Of a stretch of DNA of 64,000 nucleotides, positions 4,571 through 62,994 are shown in pieces. The stretch is from Lactobacillus gasseri ATCC 33323 = JCM 1131. GTDB lineage: Bacteria > Bacillota > Bacilli > Lactobacillales > Lactobacillaceae. Made by a program: the position numbers and the translations under genes. Under the pieces are notes generated by a model. That model did not search any database. It saw only the letters and a program-made list of their open reading frames with translations, and was not told the origin of the DNA. The stretch lies in NCBI RefSeq assembly GCF_000014425.1, contig NC_008530.1, positions 1,364,001 through 1,428,000 of the forward strand, written 5' to 3'. Position 1 is the stretch's first letter. Each line of letters starts with the position of its first letter.

Positions 4571-5734
4571 CTATTTAACTCTATATTGACGAATATCGTC
4601 ACAAATTCCAGCAAAATAGTATCTGCCTTTTTTTTCATCGCTAGTAAGTTCAACATTATTTTGAGGATCTACTAAACTTGCTGAAAAGATTTTCTCATAT
4701 TCAGGAACACTTAACTTTCTTCTTTTATCTAATAGTGCCTCGTCAGCCGCCTTATCAAGCTCATTCTCATATCCTTCAACCACATTTGCTGAATAAAATT
4801 CGGCCATAGCCCCTGAGCCATAAGAAAATAATCCAATTAAATCGCCAGCCTTTAAGCCACCATTCTCAAGTAAACTAAGTAAACTTAAGTATAAGGATCC
4901 AGTATAAATATTACCGACATTGGCATTTAATTCTTTAGACGCAGTAAAACTATCCATTAAACGAGCATTTGTTTCTTCATCTACTCCCTCAATAGCTAAA
5001 CGATTAGCCTTCAACCCCATCTTAGTAAAAGGCAAATGATATGCAATAGCAGCAAAGTCTTTTGTCTCAAGTCCTTTTTGTCTCTTATAATCAGAAAAAG
5101 TATGTTTAAAAAAGTCCAAATAAACTTGAGTTGAATATTTTCCATCAACTTTAGCAGTTTTTGAATAGTTGGGGCGCCAAAAATCATTAATATCTTCACT
5201 ATAGGCGCTATGACCTTCATTAAGCTCTAGAATTCTTGGATTGCTAGAAACTAATAAACTAACACTTCCTGCTCCTTGAGTAACTTCACCAGCCGTATTG
5301 ATCCCATAGCGAGCAATATCACTACCGATAACAATTGCAGTTTGATCAGGATGAAGTCGTACAAAGTCTTGAGCAATCATTAATCCTGCTGTTAACCCAA
5401 AGCAAGCTTCTTTAACTTCAAAAGCCCTAACAGCTGGATCAAGTTTTAAAGCTGATTTTACAAATAAAGAACCTGATTTAGATTGGTCAACACTGCTTTC
5501 AGTACCAAAAATTAAAAGACCTACCTTTGATTGGTCAATTTTATCTATATACCGTAGTGTTGCATTAATTCCCATTGAAACTGCATCTTGAGTTGGATCA
5601 GCCACGCTCATCTTTTTTTGACCAATTCCAATTAAAAATTTATTTGGATCTTGGTTTCGTGCATGAGCCAAATCTACCATGTCTACATACTTATTTGGAG
5701 TAAAATATCCGATTTGATCAATTCCAACCTTCAT
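4571..5734 (-). CDS. mvaS: hydroxymethylglutaryl-CoA synthase
   Basis: The 387-residue enzyme condenses acetyl-CoA with acetoacetyl-CoA to HMG-CoA, the second step of the mevalonate pathway. The nucleophilic cysteine is Cys111 in KEACFGLTAG, the general acid is Glu79 in FGTES, and the catalytic histidine lies in AYHLPFTKM near residue 233. The C-terminal YSYGSGAMAEFYS-like segment (LFSYGSGAMAEFYSA) is also diagnostic. The ATG abuts the stop codon of the reductase gene, so it is the last gene of a thiolase-mvaA-mvaS operon. Length is normal for the bacterial family. Confidence 0.96.
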   Translation of the reverse strand: MKVGIDQIGYFTPNKYVDMVDLAHARNQDPNKFLIGIGQKKMSVADPTQDAVSMGINATLRYIDKIDQSKVGLLIFGTESSVDQSKSGSLFVKSALKLDPAVRAFEVKEACFGLTAGLMIAQDFVRLHPDQTAIVIGSDIARYGINTAGEVTQGAGSVSLLVSSNPRILELNEGHSAYSEDINDFWRPNYSKTAKVDGKYSTQVYLDFFKHTFSDYKRQKGLETKDFAAIAYHLPFTKMGLKANRLAIEGVDEETNARLMDSFTASKELNANVGNIYTGSLYLSLLSLLENGGLKAGDLIGLFSYGSGAMAEFYSANVVEGYENELDKAADEALLDKRRKLSVPEYEKIFSASLVDPQNNVELTSDEKKGRYYFAGICDDIRQYRVK

Positions 5735-6970
5735 TTAATTCTTTTCCTTTCTTATTTCATTTAAAAATCTTACGGCGGCTTCTTGAGTGTATTGTCTACT
5801 TTCTTGTAGCTTTTCTAAAACTTTTGCTTTTTCACCTTCATTAGCCCTCAAAGTAGCTACTAAGTTTCTTGCCTGTAATTTCATATGCCCAGCCTGAATT
5901 CCCTTAGTAGAAATTGCTAACAATGCTGAAAAATTATTGGCTAAACCAGTTGCAGCAATAATCTCAGCCAGCTGCTTAGCAGACACCTTACCTAGTAAAC
6001 TAAAACTCTGCTGAATATCTTTACGAGCCTTAATGGAGCCACCCACTACGCCAATTGCTAAAGGAATCGTTACTGTTCCAATTAGTCTATTATTTTTGAT
6101 TTTCCACTTACTAAGTGAAGTATAGCTACCACCTTTATTTGCCCATACAGCAGTTGCTGCTTCTACTCCTCGGTAATCATTACCTGTTGCTACTAAGACA
6201 CTATCAACACCATTCATTATTCCTTTATTGTTCGTTACAGCTCGATAAATATCCATTTGACCAATTTCACTAAGTAAAGCTATTTTTTTAGCTACTTTTG
6301 GTCCGCCAACGCTATTGACCTCCAAACTTACTTTAGCTGTAGTTAATTGGGTCGGATAATTAGACAAAATCGCATACATAGTTTGTTCAACATTTGTCTG
6401 TTTCTCTAACCTATTTCCTAAAAATTCTAAAATGGCATTCGTTTTATTTGCTCCCATTGCTTCTGCGGGATCAACTAATACCTTAAGAAAAACTAAATTA
6501 TCTTTTCTAGAAGCTTCAATTTTTCGGACACCGCCACCATGCTTAACCAAGCTAGCAAATTTTCGGTTAGCTAGGTCAATTAACTTCGGAAATTCTTTAG
6601 TAAATTCAACCAAATCAAAATTCTGAGCCACTTCTAAAACGATTTGTCCGTAGATACCATTTCTAATGCTAACTGCTTCTACTCCACCATTTTGATTAAA
6701 AATTTTACTTGCATGATTAGCTGCTGCAACAACTGATGGCTCTTCCACTGCCATTGGTACACAGTAACTTTTTTCATTAACAATTAACTTCGGTAAAATT
6801 CCCAAAGGAAGGCGAATTTGACCAATTACATTTTCACTAAGTGTATTCAATCTTGTTAAAGTATCAGAATCTATGTTGCTTAATTCGATCCCTTTTTCCT
6901 CAAGAAAGTTTCTTCTCTCTTCCGGCAACCACTGATAAAATTTCTTTTTAGATAATTCTTCTGGTTTCAT
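5735..6970 (-). CDS. mvaA: hydroxymethylglutaryl-CoA reductase, degradative-type (class II) fold
   Basis: This 411-residue enzyme makes mevalonate from HMG-CoA in the cytosol. Motifs are ENVIGQIRLPLG (HMG-CoA site), AEAMGANKTNAILE (cofactor site with the catalytic Asp region DPAEAMG) and the catalytic histidine in GHMKLQARN. It has the soluble bacterial class II architecture without a membrane domain. I place the start at ATG 6970, with AAGGA 7 bases upstream, rather than further upstream inside the thiolase gene. The resulting 23-base overlap with the thiolase stop suggests translational coupling. Confidence 0.95.
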   Translation of the reverse strand: MKPEELSKKKFYQWLPEERRNFLEEKGIELSNIDSDTLTRLNTLSENVIGQIRLPLGILPKLIVNEKSYCVPMAVEEPSVVAAANHASKIFNQNGGVEAVSIRNGIYGQIVLEVAQNFDLVEFTKEFPKLIDLANRKFASLVKHGGGVRKIEASRKDNLVFLKVLVDPAEAMGANKTNAILEFLGNRLEKQTNVEQTMYAILSNYPTQLTTAKVSLEVNSVGGPKVAKKIALLSEIGQMDIYRAVTNNKGIMNGVDSVLVATGNDYRGVEAATAVWANKGGSYTSLSKWKIKNNRLIGTVTIPLAIGVVGGSIKARKDIQQSFSLLGKVSAKQLAEIIAATGLANNFSALLAISTKGIQAGHMKLQARNLVATLRANEGEKAKVLEKLQESRQYTQEAAVRFLNEIRKEKN

Positions 6971-54918: not shown

Positions 54919-55583
54919 AGAATTATTGATCAAACCTATCCCCTTAATAATTTATTGCCTACGGAACTAGAGCTAGCACAAGAGTTTAATACAAGTCGTC
55001 CAACAATTAATCATGCTATCCATAATCTCGTCCAAGAAGGTTTACTAGAACAGCGCAAGAGATTAGGTCCCTTGTTAAGAGAAATAAAATTCAACAAGAA
55101 TTTACTCACCTTATACAAAGCTACAATCAAGAAATGAGTACCAAAGGACTAAAAACAAAAACAAAAGTACTCTATTTTCAAAGAGTCGTTCCTAATTCAG
55201 AGGTGCAAACAGAATTTAACCTATCTACATCTGATTCCGTATTTAAATTAATTAGATTACGATACGTTGATAATCACCCAATTGTTAAAGTACCTACTTA
55301 TGTCCCCGTTTCACTTGTTCCTGATTTAGAAAAAATCAATTTTTCAACTGCATCTTTATATCTTGAACTTAAGAAAAGAAATTTAGCTGTTACCCATGTT
55401 GTAAGAAAACTAGAAGTTAAAAAAGCCTCTTCTGAAATTGCTCAAAAATTAGCCGTTAAAGAAAATGATCCTGTATTTTATTTTCGCACTTGCGGATACA
55501 CAGATAAGGATCAAAAAATAGAATATTCAATTGCTACTTACCGCGGTGATATGAACTCTTTTATCATTGATCTCAAACGTTAA
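54919..55583 (+). pseudogene. GntR/UTRA-family regulator, 5'-truncated and frameshifted
   Basis: The winged-helix half starts abruptly at IIDQTYPLNNLLPTELE (from 54922), directly after a TAA and without the usual first dozen residues or a start codon. It runs in one frame to about 55070 (QRKRLG). The continuation, KIQQEFTHLIQSYNQEMSTK, and the UTRA effector domain are in another frame up to 55583. A one-base deletion near 55070 explains this. The apparent start at 55134 (MSTKGLK) is internal. Both lesions make a functional repressor unlikely. Confidence 0.82.
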
Positions 55584-57029: not shown

Positions 57030-57060
57030 AAAAAAAGAACATAACACAGCGTTATGTTCT
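57030..57060 (-). terminator. terminator upstream of murC
   Basis: AGAACATAAC (57036-57045) pairs perfectly with GTTATGTTCT (57051-57060), with a T run on the minus strand (57030-57036). It ends transcription arriving from the right, before the murC promoter. Confidence 0.8.
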
Positions 57061-57352: not shown

Positions 57353-57997
57353 CTAAATTTTACCTAATATTTTAGTACCATGAGCTTGAGTGACCCCGAT
57401 TGTTTCTATAACAGAATTTACATTCTCATCTGTTATACCACCACCAGGTAAGATCTCAATTTTATCCTTAGCTTGTTTATTTAATTCTTTTAAATTCTCA
57501 AAACAATCAGTAATTGGACGATCTAATGATCCACCATGAGTAAGAATACGCACAACTTTGTTTTTAGATAGCCATTCTAAGGCCTCTTTCTGCTTTGAAG
57601 CTATTAATTCATCAAAAGCCATATGCATTACAACTTCTATATTTCCAGCATGGGCAGTTGCGATAAGCTGCTTCATTGCGGTTTTATCTAGCTGTTTATT
57701 ATTAGTCAAACAACCAAATGCTATACCGTCTGCATTGAGTAAACTACACATTTGAATATCATTATTCATTATTTCTAATTCATCAGCAGTGTAAACAAAA
57801 TTTCCACTACGTGGTCTAATCATTACGATTACTGGCACCTTATACCTATGGGCAAACTCCACCGTCTTTTTAATCACACCAAATGATGGCGTTGTTCCCC
57901 CAGCAGCTAAATCATTATTTAATTCTATTCGATTAGCACCACGCTTGATCATCAAAGGCACATTAGTAAAATTTTCCACACATACTTCCTTGATCAT
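57353..57997 (-). CDS. cutC: CutC family TIM-barrel protein
   Basis: A 214-residue CutC protein: EVCVENFTNVPLMIKRGANRIELNNDLAAGGTTPS, VPVIVMIRPRSGNFVYT, ILTHGGSLDRPI and the C-terminal AHGTKI. CutC was named for copper homeostasis, but in several bacteria it shows no copper phenotype. The fold suggests a metal-dependent enzyme. Here it is the last gene of the glycosylasparaginase/PTS operon, three bases after the permease gene. That suggests a metabolic role with those genes; this is an inference. Confidence 0.88.
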   Translation of the reverse strand: MIKEVCVENFTNVPLMIKRGANRIELNNDLAAGGTTPSFGVIKKTVEFAHRYKVPVIVMIRPRSGNFVYTADELEIMNNDIQMCSLLNADGIAFGCLTNNKQLDKTAMKQLIATAHAGNIEVVMHMAFDELIASKQKEALEWLSKNKVVRILTHGGSLDRPITDCFENLKELNKQAKDKIEILPGGGITDENVNSVIETIGVTQAHGTKILGKI

Positions 57998-58000
57998 TTG

Positions 58001-59314
58001 TTATACCTCGCTAAAGTCAATATCTAGATCTTTCTCAGCAGCAGCTTTTTCTTCTTTAAGATATTGCTTATCTAGCATTTTCACAAATGGATAGTAAATT
58101 AAAATATTTAAAATAATCTCCACAATTTGTAATGCAGATCCTGTCCAACTTCCTGTTGCTAACCACCCAGAAATAATTGGTGGAGTAGTCCAAGGTAATT
58201 GAACACCATTTGTCCAAGCTACCCATCCCAAGTTCATTATAATTCCCGAAATTAATGTATTTAAAACTGGGCATAAAATAAATGGAATAACTATAACAGG
58301 GTTTAAGACTACCGGTAAACCAAAAATAACAGGTTCATTAATACCAAAAATTCCAGGCAAAATTGCCAATTTACCTAACTCAAGCAATCTTTTTGATTTA
58401 CAAATTGCAAATACAACAATTAATAAAGCAAGTGTACTACCACCACCGCCATATGTTGTAAATAAATCAATGAAAGGTTGAGTATAGATATGTGGCAATG
58501 GAGCATGGTTCTGAAATGCCTTTAAGTTGTCTTGCGTTGAAACAAAGAATATAGGTTGCCATACTGAATTTGTAATTGAAGGTCCATTAATACCAAAGAA
58601 CCAAAAGAAACTTGCTAAGAAGTTGTATAGCAAAACTGATGGTAAAGAAATACCCACATGTTTCAATGGTGTCTGTAAAATCGTGTAAATAAAGTTATAC
58701 GCTGTATGAAAACTAGTTAAAGAGAATAGAATTCTTATTAGAAAGAAGAAAACAACGACTAATGCACTTGGAATCAAAGCATCAAATGATTTAGTAACTG
58801 CCGGCGGAACACCATCTGGCATCTTAATAGTCCAATTACGCTTTATCGCAAATCTATAAATTTCGACAGATATTAAGGCAATAATAATTCCTAAAAAAAT
58901 ACCATTAGGCCCTAAGAACTGAGTTTCAACTGCAGAAACAGTTTTCTTCCCCAAGACAATAGAAGTAGGAGTCAAAATTAAAAATGATATAAATGAAACC
59001 ATCCCTGATTGAATGGGATCTAGTCCTCTATTCTTACCATATGCATATGCAATCGCAATTGCTGATAATATTCCCGTAAAGCTAAAGACAGAATTAGATA
59101 CAGCACTAAACCAATCAGGAAATTGCGGTCCACATACTTTAATCCAAAATTCAGACCAGCCTGGAATTGGAAAATTACCAATAAGTAAAAATATAGAAGT
59201 AACTATGATCAGAGGTGTAATAATTAAAAAGCCATCACGCAATGACATTAAAACAACATTATTCCCTAGCTTCGAGGCAACTGGCATCAGCACCTTCTCA
59301 AATTTCTTTTGCAT
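58001..59314 (-). CDS. PTS transporter subunit IIC, lactose/cellobiose family
   Basis: The 437-residue membrane permease has about ten transmembrane segments and family signatures: SLRDGFLIITPLIIVTSIFLL at the N-terminus, FFWFFGINGPSI, and the GIFGINEPVIFGLPVVLNP loop that binds the phosphorylatable substrate. Cellobiose/chitobiose-type IIC proteins usually take up beta-glucosides or GlcNAc oligosaccharides. No IIA or IIB gene is in the window, so it must borrow them. GGAGG precedes the ATG. Confidence 0.92.
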   Translation of the reverse strand: MQKKFEKVLMPVASKLGNNVVLMSLRDGFLIITPLIIVTSIFLLIGNFPIPGWSEFWIKVCGPQFPDWFSAVSNSVFSFTGILSAIAIAYAYGKNRGLDPIQSGMVSFISFLILTPTSIVLGKKTVSAVETQFLGPNGIFLGIIIALISVEIYRFAIKRNWTIKMPDGVPPAVTKSFDALIPSALVVVFFFLIRILFSLTSFHTAYNFIYTILQTPLKHVGISLPSVLLYNFLASFFWFFGINGPSITNSVWQPIFFVSTQDNLKAFQNHAPLPHIYTQPFIDLFTTYGGGGSTLALLIVVFAICKSKRLLELGKLAILPGIFGINEPVIFGLPVVLNPVIVIPFILCPVLNTLISGIIMNLGWVAWTNGVQLPWTTPPIISGWLATGSWTGSALQIVEIILNILIYYPFVKMLDKQYLKEEKAAAEKDLDIDFSEV

Positions 59315-59338
59315 TTTAGAACCTCCAACTGAAAAAAA

Positions 59339-59863
59339 CTAATAGCAGTAACTTCCCTTAAATTTTGCAATATCTCCTTTATTTGTTAAAATTTGACACC
59401 CCTTAGCCAAATTATCTAAGGATTCAGCAAGACCGGTACCACCTTTTTTAGGCATCTTAACAATTGGAAATTTGTCTTTATATTTTTCAATAAGTTCTTG
59501 ATTCTTTTCTTTTGCTATAGCTCCGATTACAGGAATGCTAGTGTTTTCTGTAATTGCAGTTCCAATTTCTACCGCCATTTCGGCGAAATCATGATAATCA
59601 AATGTTGGCCCAACGATAACTACATCAGCCTCCATTTTTTCAGCCATTTTTGAAAATTTTCTCTGTACGATTTCTTTATTTTGTTGATAATATTTCGGTC
59701 CACAGTAAAATGTACCAATGATCTCTCCGTTTACAGCCTCTAAAGCCTTCTCGACATTATCAGCACTTCCCATTGCAATCTTTTTACCGCCTAACGGTGT
59801 GTCGCTTCTCTCATCCCCACCTAAACCAGCTTGAATCTGGTCAAGAATAATAATGGTTTTCAT
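59339..59863 (-). CDS. GrdB-related protein lacking selenocysteine
   Basis: The 174-residue protein resembles the N-terminal portion of glycine/betaine reductase component B (GrdB). It has a LGGKKIAMGSAD-like start, a strand with GTFYCGPKYYQQNKE, then VVIVGPTFDYHDFAEMAVEIGTAI and PVIGAIAKEKNQEL. The usual selenocysteine domain is absent: the gene ends in an ordinary TAG, not an in-frame TGA. Its function is unknown; a redox or C-N bond-cleaving role is an inference from the family. It lies between the Ntn hydrolase and PTS genes, with gaps of 14 and 24 bases. Confidence 0.7.
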   Translation of the reverse strand: MKTIIILDQIQAGLGGDERSDTPLGGKKIAMGSADNVEKALEAVNGEIIGTFYCGPKYYQQNKEIVQRKFSKMAEKMEADVVIVGPTFDYHDFAEMAVEIGTAITENTSIPVIGAIAKEKNQELIEKYKDKFPIVKMPKKGGTGLAESLDNLAKGCQILTNKGDIAKFKGSYCY

Positions 59864-59877
59864 AATATGTCACCTTC

Positions 59878-60831
59878 CTACACTATAGGTGCGTGAATCC
59901 TTTTTTCGTACGCATCAAGCCATTCTTGGCTAACAGGCTCAATTTTAGTCTTCATATTATCTATTGGGTTAGCCATCAAAATCACAGATTTTTGCTTATC
60001 AGTTGCAACACAAAATGTAAACTCAACGTTAGTAGCTACTCCCCATTCTCCTTTATTATTCATTGCAACTAATGAAAACTCTCCAGCTTTGCCATAGCGC
60101 TTTTTTAAATCTTTTATAAATGGATAAACTGCATGATTGCAAGCATCTTGTGGCAATTCACCTTCCTGCATTCTCCTAACAATTTCATATGATAAGCAGC
60201 CTTTCATAATGTCTTCTCCAAGACCTGTTGCCGCAGCACCACCAACTTTACTATCAACATAAAAGCCTGAACCAGATAATGGCGAATCGCCTACACGACC
60301 ATCTTTTTTCATAAATAACCCCGATGTTGAAGTTGCAGCTGCCATTGAGTTATTTTTATCTAAAGTAATAGCACCTACAGTGTCATGCCCATCATATGGG
60401 TTCAAATTCTGCTGTTCAATTTCTTTACAACGCTTTTGCCAGCGTTTTTTAGCACGTTCTGTTAACATATTTGTCATTTCAAAACCATGTAAACTAGCAA
60501 ACTTGGTTGCTCCTTCGCCAACTCTAAAGCTATTATAATGTTCACGACTCAAGGCCCGCGCAACAGATACAGCATGCATTACATTTTCAATCGCCCCAAC
60601 AGCTCCTTGAGCTAGCGTATCTCCATTCATGAAAGCTGCATCCATTTGTACAACGCCTTCTTCGTTTGGAAGACCTCCATAGCCAACTGACTTATAATAC
60701 GGATATGCTTCAACTGTATTAATTAATTTTTCAACTGCATCTCCCGCAGTACCATTTTCTTTCAAAATTGTACTAGCCTTTTCGACTCCTTCATTTGCCA
60801 TTCGCCAAGTTGCAATTGTTCCCCATGACAT
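59878..60831 (-). CDS. N4-(beta-N-acetylglucosaminyl)-L-asparaginase-type Ntn hydrolase
   Basis: The 317-residue precursor belongs to the glycosylasparaginase/isoaspartyl peptidase family. Self-cleavage is expected between Asp150 and Thr151 in DGHDTVGAI, freeing Thr151 as nucleophile. The RVGDSPLSGSGFYVD segment and GGAAATGLGED are typical of glycosylasparaginases rather than plant-type asparaginases. No signal peptide is present, so it acts in the cytosol on an imported compound. The substrate (GlcNAc-Asn, another N4-substituted Asn, or isoAsp peptide) cannot be fixed. It is in an operon with a PTS permease. Confidence 0.87.
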   Translation of the reverse strand: MSWGTIATWRMANEGVEKASTILKENGTAGDAVEKLINTVEAYPYYKSVGYGGLPNEEGVVQMDAAFMNGDTLAQGAVGAIENVMHAVSVARALSREHYNSFRVGEGATKFASLHGFEMTNMLTERAKKRWQKRCKEIEQQNLNPYDGHDTVGAITLDKNNSMAAATSTSGLFMKKDGRVGDSPLSGSGFYVDSKVGGAAATGLGEDIMKGCLSYEIVRRMQEGELPQDACNHAVYPFIKDLKKRYGKAGEFSLVAMNNKGEWGVATNVEFTFCVATDKQKSVILMANPIDNMKTKIEPVSQEWLDAYEKRIHAPIV

Positions 60832-60847
60832 AGAAAAAACTTCCTCT

Positions 60848-62164
60848 CTATTCTAAAGAACCTAATCTTTCCAAGCTTCTCATATATATTTTGATACTTA
60901 ATAAAAGGTCTTTTAAATTCATCCATTCATTTTCTTTGTGAGCTATTCCTTTTTGTCCTGGAAAAGATGGTCCAAAGGCAATGATATTTTGCATTACTCG
61001 AGCATAAGTGGCTCCGGTTGTTGTAACTGGCGTCCCATCAAGTCCAGTCACTTCTTCATATACTTCAGATAAAATTTGTATAAATTTAGAATTTTTATTA
61101 TGCATTACACTAGGAATACTACGTATAACTTTAATATTACTGTTCACTGGGATATTATTTTTGATTCCTTCTGTAATTTGCTCCTCTTGATATGACACTG
61201 GATAACGAATAGCTATTTCTATTTGCATACCATTATTTTCAATACTTAAACCAGTAGGAGTCATAATTAATTTTCCAGAATCATTATCATGAAACTCAAT
61301 TCCTAGTCCTTCTCCATAATGCTTTCGATGGAGAGCTTTAACAATCCATTTAAAATAACTATTTAATTGCCCTGAAACTAACTTTTCATCAACTATTTTC
61401 TTAGCTAAGTATGTTATGGCATTCTTTCCCATTTCTGGAGCATTACTTGGAACTCTTATACCATGACTCTCAATTCTTCTATTTTTAATTTCTACACTTA
61501 ATTCATCAGGCACATGATCTTTTGCCATATCCCCTTGCAGATTCTTCACTTGATTTAGACTTCCATCTGAAATTGGTGTAAAAATAGAATAATTTACGAT
61601 TCCGCGTTCCCCATATACTACTGGATATTTACAATCAGCTGTCCAACCAAAGATTGGTGGTTTTTCCTTCTTTAAATATAAAGGCACATCATTAGAGCCA
61701 CTTTCTTCATCTGATCCAAAAACTAATCTAATCGTCTTTTTAGGCTTATAACCAAGATCCTTAAGCATTTTCATTGCCCATAATGTTGCTAGTGCAGGAC
61801 CTTTATTATCTAGTATTCCTCTACCATACAATCGACCATTCTCAACGGATAAATCCCACGGATTAAACTTCCACTTATCACCTACTGGCACTACATCTAA
61901 ATGATCAATAATACCAATATAATTCTCATCGTCATCTCCCCATTGCGCATATACCATCGCATTATTAACAATTTTTGCTTTAAATCCACATTTTTCAATA
62001 ATTGGAACTATAGTTTCTAATGCTTTTTTAGGTCCTTTACCAAATGGAGCGTCTTTTTCTGAACTGCCTTTAACGCTTGGAATTTGCATAATTGTGCGTA
62101 AATTTTCTAAAAATACTTTTTCATTTGTACTTATAGCTTTGTTAATTTTCTCTTCTGATATCAT
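60848..62164 (-). CDS. M20-family dipeptidase (Sapep/PepV-like)
   Basis: The 438-residue metallopeptidase has zinc ligands in IIDHLDVVP (His88), GILDNKGP (Asp119), GSDEESG (Glu153-Glu154), TADCKYP (Asp177) and a C-terminal His in GIAHKENEW. The central lid domain is as in PepV/Sapep dipeptidases. It would cleave small peptides in the cytosol, probably with Mn or Zn. It is the second gene of the operon, 22 bases after gntR. Confidence 0.9.
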   Translation of the reverse strand: MISEEKINKAISTNEKVFLENLRTIMQIPSVKGSSEKDAPFGKGPKKALETIVPIIEKCGFKAKIVNNAMVYAQWGDDDENYIGIIDHLDVVPVGDKWKFNPWDLSVENGRLYGRGILDNKGPALATLWAMKMLKDLGYKPKKTIRLVFGSDEESGSNDVPLYLKKEKPPIFGWTADCKYPVVYGERGIVNYSIFTPISDGSLNQVKNLQGDMAKDHVPDELSVEIKNRRIESHGIRVPSNAPEMGKNAITYLAKKIVDEKLVSGQLNSYFKWIVKALHRKHYGEGLGIEFHDNDSGKLIMTPTGLSIENNGMQIEIAIRYPVSYQEEQITEGIKNNIPVNSNIKVIRSIPSVMHNKNSKFIQILSEVYEEVTGLDGTPVTTTGATYARVMQNIIAFGPSFPGQKGIAHKENEWMNLKDLLLSIKIYMRSLERLGSLE

Positions 62165-62186
62165 TGTCTTAATCCTTAAAACTAAA

Positions 62187-62915
62187 CTATCTCAACCTAG
62201 TTAGTGTTGACTTGAATGAATATTTATCAGCTCGATAAAATGATGTATCAAAGAAAATAGGGATTGCATCTGGCGTATAGGTTATAGTCTTAACTTTAAA
62301 TATTGGCTGTTGTCCCTTAATGTTCAAATATTTAGAAATTTCATCAGTAACCATAATTGCTTCAATCTCTTGATGTGCATAACCAATTTCGATATTTTCA
62401 TTTAAGATTTTAAATAAAGATTGTTCAAAATCAGCTAATGTCTTATTTTTTATATATTCACCACAAATAAGAATTTTTTCGAGAGTCATCGGGTCATTAT
62501 CCCAATAACGTATTCTTTTTAACTCAAAAACCTTTTTATCTAATCTATCGTCTAGTGCCAATATTTCACTAATTTTTCTACTCGGATTTCTAATAGGTGC
62601 GAATTTTAATACTTTAGTGTGCACCGTTTTTCCATGTTCTTTAGCAACTTCAGTAAAACTTTGCAATCCTCCTCTACCAGATTCAATTTTTGAATTTCTT
62701 TCAGCACCTAACATTACATATGTGCCTTTACCCGGATCTTTTACTAATATTTTGGCGTTTATCAAACGACTAATTGCTTTTCTAATCGTCAAACGTGAAA
62801 CATCAAATTCTTGCGCTAATTGATATTCAGAAGGCAGTCGCTGACGGCTGGTATATGTTTCATTTCTAATTCTTTCTCTGATTATCTTTACTATCTCTTC
62901 AACTTTTGTCATCAT
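62187..62915 (-). CDS. GntR-family regulator, HutC/UTRA subfamily
   Basis: A 243-residue (approximately) repressor with an N-terminal winged helix (RLPSEYQLAQEFDVSRLTIRKAISRLI, DPGKGTYV) and a C-terminal UTRA effector domain (KRIRYWDNDPMTLEK, FFDTSFYRADKY). Such regulators bind sugar phosphates or small metabolites. The start is placed at the first ATG, 62915; a GTG at 62921 is an alternative. It heads the operon and probably binds the palindrome in its own promoter (62950-62965). Confidence 0.92.
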   Translation of the reverse strand: MMTKVEEIVKIIRERIRNETYTSRQRLPSEYQLAQEFDVSRLTIRKAISRLINAKILVKDPGKGTYVMLGAERNSKIESGRGGLQSFTEVAKEHGKTVHTKVLKFAPIRNPSRKISEILALDDRLDKKVFELKRIRYWDNDPMTLEKILICGEYIKNKTLADFEQSLFKILNENIEIGYAHQEIEAIMVTDEISKYLNIKGQQPIFKVKTITYTPDAIPIFFDTSFYRADKYSFKSTLTRLR

Positions 62916-62949
62916 TTTCACCAGCTTCCACTTAATTCAAGCGTCTTTT

Positions 62950-62965
62950 CATAGTATATACTATG
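62950..62965. promoter_or_regulatory. 16-bp perfect palindrome, probable GntR operator
   Basis: CATAGTATATACTATG is a perfect palindrome overlapping the -10 region (TAGTAT, minus strand 62958-62963). Its core resembles operators of HutC-type GntR repressors. Confidence 0.75.
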
Positions 62966-62986
62966 CTGTATGCTCCTAAATGTAAA
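62958..62986 (-). promoter_or_regulatory. promoter of the gntR-cutC operon
   Basis: On the minus strand TTTACA (62981-62986) and TAGTAT (62958-62963) are separated by 17 bases. Both hexamers overlap regulatory sites: the GntR palindrome covers the -10, and the cre-like site covers the -35. Confidence 0.6.
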
Positions 62987-62994
62987 CGCTTTAG
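62981..62994 (-). promoter_or_regulatory. cre-like site for CcpA
   Basis: On the minus strand CTAAAGCGTTTACA matches the ideal cre (TGAAAGCGTTTACA) at 12 of 14 positions and overlaps the -35. CcpA binding there would repress the operon when preferred sugars are present. Confidence 0.65.

Follow-up and report, generated by a model that had tools for sequence, protein, structure and literature searches.

GrdB belongs, with GrdF and GrdH, to the selenoprotein B components of glycine, sarcosine and betaine reductase, and it breaks a C-N bond. A second described system close to the locus analysed here is the alf-2 operon of Lactobacillus casei, which serves the use of 6'FN-Asn and GlcNAc-Asn (PMC6960285). 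In the passages of that paper on the pathway, GlcNAc-Asn is cleaved by L. casei AsnA2, and the 1-amino-GlcNAc that this yields is said to break down without an enzyme; strains with alf-2-type clusters include, according to the Fig 7 legend, L. johnsonii ATCC 33200, L. gasseri ATCC 33323 and L. sakei LS25, and the word 'reductase' is absent from the main text (PMC6960285). In L. sakei, LSA1689 (M20), LSA1690 (EIIC), LSA1692 (GntR) and LSA1693 (asnA2) belong to the genes listed as changed on ribose; their values in some strains are positive, between 0.7 and 1.1 (PMC3146418). Our literature search listed no paper on enzymatic breakdown of glycosylamines.

Here we analysed a window, that is, a whole stretch of 64,000 nucleotides of L. 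gasseri ATCC 33323 DNA (NC_008530.1, positions 1,364,001 to 1,428,000), in which a preliminary description had singled out a partial match to GrdB, ending in an ordinary TAG and lacking selenocysteine (Sec), within a sugar operon. We refer to this protein as mini-GrdB.

Gene content and regulation of the operon

Six genes follow one another on the minus strand, separated by 3 to 24 bases, in the order GntR, M20 dipeptidase, type-2 asparaginase, mini-GrdB, PTS EIIC and CutC. They encode a GntR/UTRA regulator of the LSA1692 subfamily (62187-62921; NF041547, 330 bits, cut-off 275), an M20 dipeptidase of the Sapep/PepV type with 438 aa (60848-62164; TIGR01887, 418.3 bits, cut-off 207.95), an AsnA2-like type-2 asparaginase of 317 aa (59878-60831; PF01112), mini-GrdB itself (59339-59863), a PTS EIIC of the lactose/cellobiose family with 437 aa (58001-59314; TIGR00410, 401.7 bits, cut-off 236) and a CutC-family protein of 214 aa (57353-57997; PF03932, 185.7 bits). 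A terminator-like stem-loop lies after cutC on the same strand (57036-57060); it is a consensus match, of which five were found against 2.5 expected.

The asparaginase is, by score, a glycosylasparaginase, as it reaches 182.6 bits to the glycosylasparaginase 9gaa/1p4k and 123.5 bits to the best isoaspartyl peptidase. In this comparison GRVGDSP is shared and HDT occupies the position of the nucleophile, both being catalytic motifs. With glycosylasparaginase, PepV and GntR together, the operon is by its gene content of the alf-2 (GlcNAc-Asn) type, with a PTS in place of the MFS permease, and AlfH, AlfC and SugK are not among the six genes of 57353-62921. In this interval the lactose-family EIIC is accompanied by neither EIIB nor EIIA; matches to PF02302 and PF02255 are found at other places in the genome, for example as an EIIA/EIIB pair (G000:C1:226086-227047).

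A 16-bp perfect palindrome with AGTATATACT at its centre (62950-62965) is the likely operator of the GntR regulator, judging from its recurrence in related loci. The window site alone is not significant (one site, 0.49 expected at up to 3 mismatches). Of 90 upstream stretches (130 bp) taken from the AsnA, M20 and GntR genes of the window and loci L061-L098, 22 contain AGTATATACT, and among 160 palindromes of like composition used as comparison none besides it occurred in over 4 stretches. It was present in 15 of 25 loci with a GntR gene and in 0 of 14 loci without one. It also precedes the MFS gene of L103 and the GntR gene of L104, two alf-2-type loci with MFS permease and fucosidase genes that belong to the control set described below. 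AGTATATACT is probably the operator of the AlfR2/LSA1692-type GntR regulators. The whole genome has 3 sites against 3 for the reversed control, and since the other two are inside ORFs, no further regulon member was found. A promoter-like TTTACA-17-TAGTAT on the minus strand (62958-62986), a consensus match with 36 in the region against 27.7 expected, overlaps the palindrome with its -10. A cre-like site at 62981-62994 was dropped, as it has 2 mismatches and the window contains 66 such matches against 74 expected; at one mismatch or fewer, such a site appeared in 0 of 26 GntR upstream stretches.

On the plus strand at 54955-55583, a second GntR/UTRA-like gene is split into frames of 60 aa and 149 aa that overlap at ATGA. 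Its counterpart in locus L001 is likewise short (139 aa), and the gene is possibly a decayed regulator.

Relationship of mini-GrdB to GrdB

The mini-GrdB gene runs from an ATG start to a TAG stop and encodes 174 aa that comprise the N-terminal GrdB domain only. Homology to the N-terminal part of GrdB is found with the Pfam profile GRDB (PF07355), where residues 2-165 match profile positions 3-162 of 347 at 70.2 bits (cut-off 22), and the NCBIfam model NF041545 is matched over its whole length (residues 2-173 to model positions 1-171 of 171) at 238.7 bits (cut-off 175). The subfamily cut-off of TIGR01918 is not reached (49.3 versus 65.45 bits). Mini-GrdB is a genuine member of the already modelled NF041545 family, which is itself uncharacterised; in our literature search no paper was recognised by its title as dealing with this family. 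These searches bear out the partial GrdB match and the GrdB relationship and assigned no different superfamily; the view of mini-GrdB as a singular oddity has to be given up, given that an NCBI family already exists.

NF041545 scores over its cut-off in 35 of 395 Lactobacillales genomes (any match in 56) and in 3 of 398 genomes of a phylum sample that includes the genome of the window (any match in 113). The latter genome, of 1.89 Mb, has one NF041545 match, and a 99% identical copy is found in L. johnsonii ATCC 33200. Most matches that stay below the cut-off fall in frames of about 350 residues; 22 such loci, from other Bacillota, were inspected and 20 proved to be GrdB with a Sec motif. In these 20, on either strand, the Sec segment TST-stop-GTCTRC follows after about 345 residues; in the 14 GrdB loci read in frame its stop codon is TGA, and 85 to 89 residues then follow. 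The mini-GrdB product ends at residue 174, leaving profile positions 163-347 unmatched, and the Sec half is absent.

A further form of the protein, group f76, is found in five genomes of another Bacillota family, in the order EIIA-mini-EIIB-EIIC next to GH1 (one of the five was typed). The f76 form of L088 scores between GrdB and the lactobacillar mini-GrdB, with 165.9 bits to Pfam GRDB, 163.6 to NF041545 and 155.2 to TIGR01918, whose cut-off it passes. The f76 operons (L085-L089) also include a 169-aa protein that matches no Pfam or NCBIfam model. In a quick tree of the domain, to be read with a warning about long branches, mini-GrdBs, f76 forms and GrdBs each fall on one side of a branch, and the stand-alone mini-GrdBs form one group spanning several families; the tree is silent on direction, that is, on GrdB cut down versus mini-GrdB extended.

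Profile searches found no match to PF09338 (GrdE), PF04723 (GrdA) or SelA in the whole genome of the window, which extends to the genome the earlier statement that the window has no other grd gene. Among the 43 genomes with a mini-GrdB or f76 form, full-length GrdE was found in 5, GrdA in 5 and SelA over its cut-off in 10, and both GrdA and full-length GrdE are absent from 38. Any PF09338 match was seen in 9 of the 43; most of the weaker matches fall in frames of some 630-650 residues, possibly subunits of proline reductase. Just downstream of one mini-GrdB operon (L071 in genome G217, 5254-6410) lie a GrdA gene with one in-frame TGA, an N-terminal fragment of GrdE and a transporter read as BCCT type. 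We set aside this GrdE fragment as a lost partner of mini-GrdB, as it sits with GrdA and a transporter in 1 of 43 genomes.

Gene neighbourhood of mini-GrdB

We compared 39 mini-GrdB loci, near-copies and two broken copies (L093, L094) included, counting genes as one operon when on the same strand with gaps under 250 bases. An EIIC gene is in the mini-GrdB operon at 38 of the 39 loci and directly adjacent at 33. The sugar-operon setting first described for the window, where the PTS EIIC gene adjoins mini-GrdB, is supported. The exception, L092, is a locus without a recognised EIIC. Other genes of the operons are asparaginase (31 loci), EIIB (30), M20 (27), GntR (20), EIIA (14), M42 peptidases (9) and CutC (6). 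Mini-GrdB as a stand-in for a missing EIIB was rejected, because EIIB accompanies it in 30 of the 39 operons.

One or two M42 aminopeptidase genes are present in the operons of nine loci (L061-L066, L068, L069 and L078; two members typed), an indication that small peptides make up part of the substrate. In the group f5 loci L069, L078 and L096, the operons end, after AsnA and M20, with CutC and a member of a gene group that was typed in L096 as DUF7916; CutC is last in the window operon too, a position that hints at a catabolic rather than a copper role.

Co-inheritance with the PTS EIIC

Sequence distances were correlated across the loci, which are related to one another, leaving out L093, L094, L098, the five f76 rows and the window, for which L001 stands in. 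Distances between mini-GrdBs follow those between EIICs closely (r = 0.949, 29 loci), as do EIIC and EIIB (0.937, 23 loci) and mini-GrdB and EIIB (0.906, 23 loci); values are lower for mini-GrdB with AsnA (0.605, 28 loci), M20 (0.633, 27 loci) and GntR (0.482, 21 loci). Within the 21 loci where all five genes are present, the correlations are 0.968 for mini-GrdB and EIIC, 0.937 for EIIC and EIIB, 0.769 for mini-GrdB and AsnA and 0.81 for mini-GrdB and M20. There, the partial correlation of mini-GrdB and EIIC given AsnA and M20 is 0.903, and those of mini-GrdB with AsnA and with M20 given EIIC are 0.088 and 0.139, respectively. AsnA, M20 and GntR correlate with one another at 0.84 to 0.87. The small PTS parts split less cleanly, with 0.808 for EIIB and M20, and for EIIA (10 loci) 0.899 with AsnA and 0.837 with mini-GrdB. 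By these distances mini-GrdB goes with EIIC and, less cleanly, with EIIB, in the sense of co-inheritance and not of contact or catalysis. The preliminary description had seen no precedent for a partner; by co-inheritance EIIC is one. The correlations suggest that such operons combine two parts with partly separate histories, one for uptake (EIIC, EIIB, mini-GrdB) and one for cleavage (AsnA, M20, GntR).

As a control we turned to asparaginase loci that lack mini-GrdB. Asparaginase is found in 79 of the 395 Lactobacillales genomes, 44 of which have no mini-GrdB, intact or broken, and the control comprises 40 AsnA loci from 39 of these 44, with 5 genomes and two second copies left out. Thirty of the 40 have no such EIIC nearby; of the 39 genomes, 29 lack EIIC beside AsnA, as if the PTS, and not AsnA, required mini-GrdB. 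Thirteen of the 30 loci carry a gene from a group in which the single member examined is a ROK sugar kinase. The remaining 10 have an EIIC without mini-GrdB, such as L136, whose gene content otherwise matches that of L096; the PTS can therefore do without mini-GrdB. Asparaginase with mini-GrdB and without EIIC was not found in any examined locus.

A quick EIIC tree of 49 rows, 38 with and 11 without mini-GrdB (the broken copies of L093 and L094 scored as with, L095 as without), requires at least six gains or losses, between which the tree cannot separate. Broken mini-GrdB copies in three genomes (G163, G345 and G362) show that losses occur.

Because mini-GrdB appears to be inherited together with a sugar transporter, its role is probably the handling of what the transporter imports. 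Our leading reading, held tentatively and at just short of an even chance, is that mini-GrdB is an accessory of this PTS, independent of Sec and GrdE, that binds or converts its 6-phosphorylated product. Two other explanations draw on the same data. Mini-GrdB could regulate or stabilise EIIC/EIIB at the protein level and perform no chemistry on small molecules, since it fits EIIC as tightly as EIIB does in both sets of loci and its gene usually adjoins that of EIIC; we consider this unlikely, as the polar residues it has in common with GrdB (E18, C54, Y58, D80 and E119) look like a kept ligand pocket and 11 of the 49 EIICs have no intact mini-GrdB beside them.

The other explanation takes up the C-N chemistry that the preliminary description had drawn from the family context: a C-N hydrolase would speed the breakdown of a 6-phosphorylated 1-amino-sugar after cleavage of GlcNAc(6P)-Asn, with release of ammonia. 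The setting agrees with it, as asparaginase shares the operon in 31 of 39 loci and that of the window, typed as a glycosylasparaginase, is the next gene. The non-enzymatic decay of 1-amino-GlcNAc described for L. casei (PMC6960285) would make such an enzyme dispensable, in keeping with the patchy presence of mini-GrdB on the EIIC tree. Yet, with EIIC taken into account, mini-GrdB no longer follows AsnA, none of the five f76 genomes has an asparaginase match, and most of the 39 control genomes also lack EIIC beside AsnA. The hydrolase is thus chemically attractive but disfavoured because the data separate mini-GrdB from the asparaginase; a C-N role of this kind is possible, weaker than that of a PTS accessory, and in the hydrolase form quite unlikely.

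Conserved residues

Residues were counted in 32 mini-GrdBs and 5 f76 forms (37 of the 39 loci; L093 and L094, under 158 aa, were left out) and compared with 20 of the 22 GrdB loci, the other two having no motif in the stretch examined. Common to mini-GrdBs and GrdB are G15, G32, T51, C54, G55, Y58, D80, G85, P86, E119 and G144, and E18 is present in every mini-GrdB and in 16 of 20 GrdBs. Cys54 of TFYCGPKY (codon at 59702-59704, minus strand) occurs in 31 of 32 mini-GrdBs, all five f76 forms and all 20 GrdBs, and by this distribution it is ancestral. Cys173, in the C-terminal SYCY, occurs in 18 of 32 mini-GrdBs and in no f76 form or GrdB. Of the two cysteines that the preliminary description had proposed to align, the first is thus conserved, and the two-cysteine idea fails on the second.

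Other positions set the mini-GrdBs and f76 forms apart. K69 is present in all 37 (E or D stands there in 16 of 20 GrdBs), and position 140 is K or R in all 37 and in none of the 20 GrdBs; G141 (37 of 37), G142 (35 of 37) and Y90 (36 of 37) are likewise new. In the window, K140 is part of KMPKKGGTGL (residues 136-145; 59429-59458, minus strand). A basic residue ahead of Gly-Gly-x-Gly suggests phosphate binding, in keeping with a PTS product, and the [KR]-G-G-x-G loop is a putative phosphate site.

The conservation of Cys54 in all three forms, together with the NCBIfam name, would also fit a thiol oxidoreductase using this residue. We regard this as highly unlikely: Sec and the UGTCTRC segment belong to the missing half, apart from Cys54 no cysteine is conserved in more than 85% of mini-GrdBs, and the ten neighbour groups counted across the 39 loci include no redox gene. 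In addition, the one mini-GrdB with Ser in place of Cys54 (L061, genome G309) is the best-scoring NF041545 member in the Lactobacillales sample, at 250.7 bits.

That mini-GrdB is a drifting, functionless remnant of GrdB, as the three broken copies and a 160-aa copy in L092 might suggest, is very improbable, given that the gene is intact in most loci, that the stand-alone forms make up one group over several families and a curated family, and that comparison with the gene of another species in the genus gives 26 synonymous and 11 non-synonymous codon differences, which suggests purifying selection.

Structure searches

A single-sequence AlphaFold model of mini-GrdB was weak (pLDDT 64.2, pTM 0.69) and gave generic Rossmann-like matches, which we did not use for function. 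With this model Foldseek returned no PDB match at E below 0.001, and the best VIA-align match was a de novo design (Z 8.2, rmsd 3.5, 112 aligned). Sequence searches of the PDB with the mini-GrdB protein, the mini-GrdB alignment and the GrdB alignment found no GrdB relative, the profile matches being designed repeat proteins, a HEAT-repeat protein, fusions of these and transferrin-binding proteins. Among viral contigs, no relative of either alignment was found.

Discussion

To the NF041545 family, whose name carries no tested function, our analysis adds the link with a PTS. Under the accessory reading, the lactose-family PTS would import a glycosyl-asparagine or small glycopeptide and phosphorylate its sugar. 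Mini-GrdB would then bind the 6-phosphorylated product via K69 and the [KR]-G-G-x-G loop and hold or convert it, after which glycosylasparaginase and peptidases in the Lactobacillales, or a GH1 glycosidase in the f76 group, would act. The step would be helpful but dispensable.

A more specific and more doubtful version is that the substrate-side half of GrdB has been re-used, free of selenium and of GrdE, as a PTS-dedicated enzyme breaking the C-N (or other anomeric) bond of a 6-phosphorylated glycoconjugate. If true, a GrdB N-domain standing alone would for the first time have a catalytic function, and the same reading would locate the substrate within GrdB. Mini-GrdB offers a small, selenium-free protein for finding the ligand of the N-terminal half of GrdB.

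Compared with known systems, mini-GrdB is a full-length, Sec-free member of NF041545 ('GrdB_like_no_Se', 'GrdB-related putative oxidoreductase'), from which we saw no difference, and the regulator of its operon likewise has an NCBIfam model of its own, NF041547. With respect to GrdB, GrdF and GrdH, it corresponds to their N-terminal ~162 residues and differs in having no C-terminal Sec domain, in scoring below the TIGR01918 cut-off, and in K69 and [KR]140-G-G, which are new. The EIIC is over the cut-off of the lactose/cellobiose family (TIGR00410) and differs from such systems in having no EIIB or EIIA in its operon and an extra mini-GrdB gene. Finally, as far as the alf-2 operon of L. casei is set out in the passages on its gene content, GntR, M20 PepV and glycosylasparaginase are common to both operons, whereas L. 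casei has the MFS permease AlfH, the fucosidase AlfC and the kinase SugK where the window operon instead has EIIC, mini-GrdB and CutC (PMC6960285). In the PTS-type counterparts of the GlcNAc-Asn pathway of L. casei, mini-GrdB would be an additional step.
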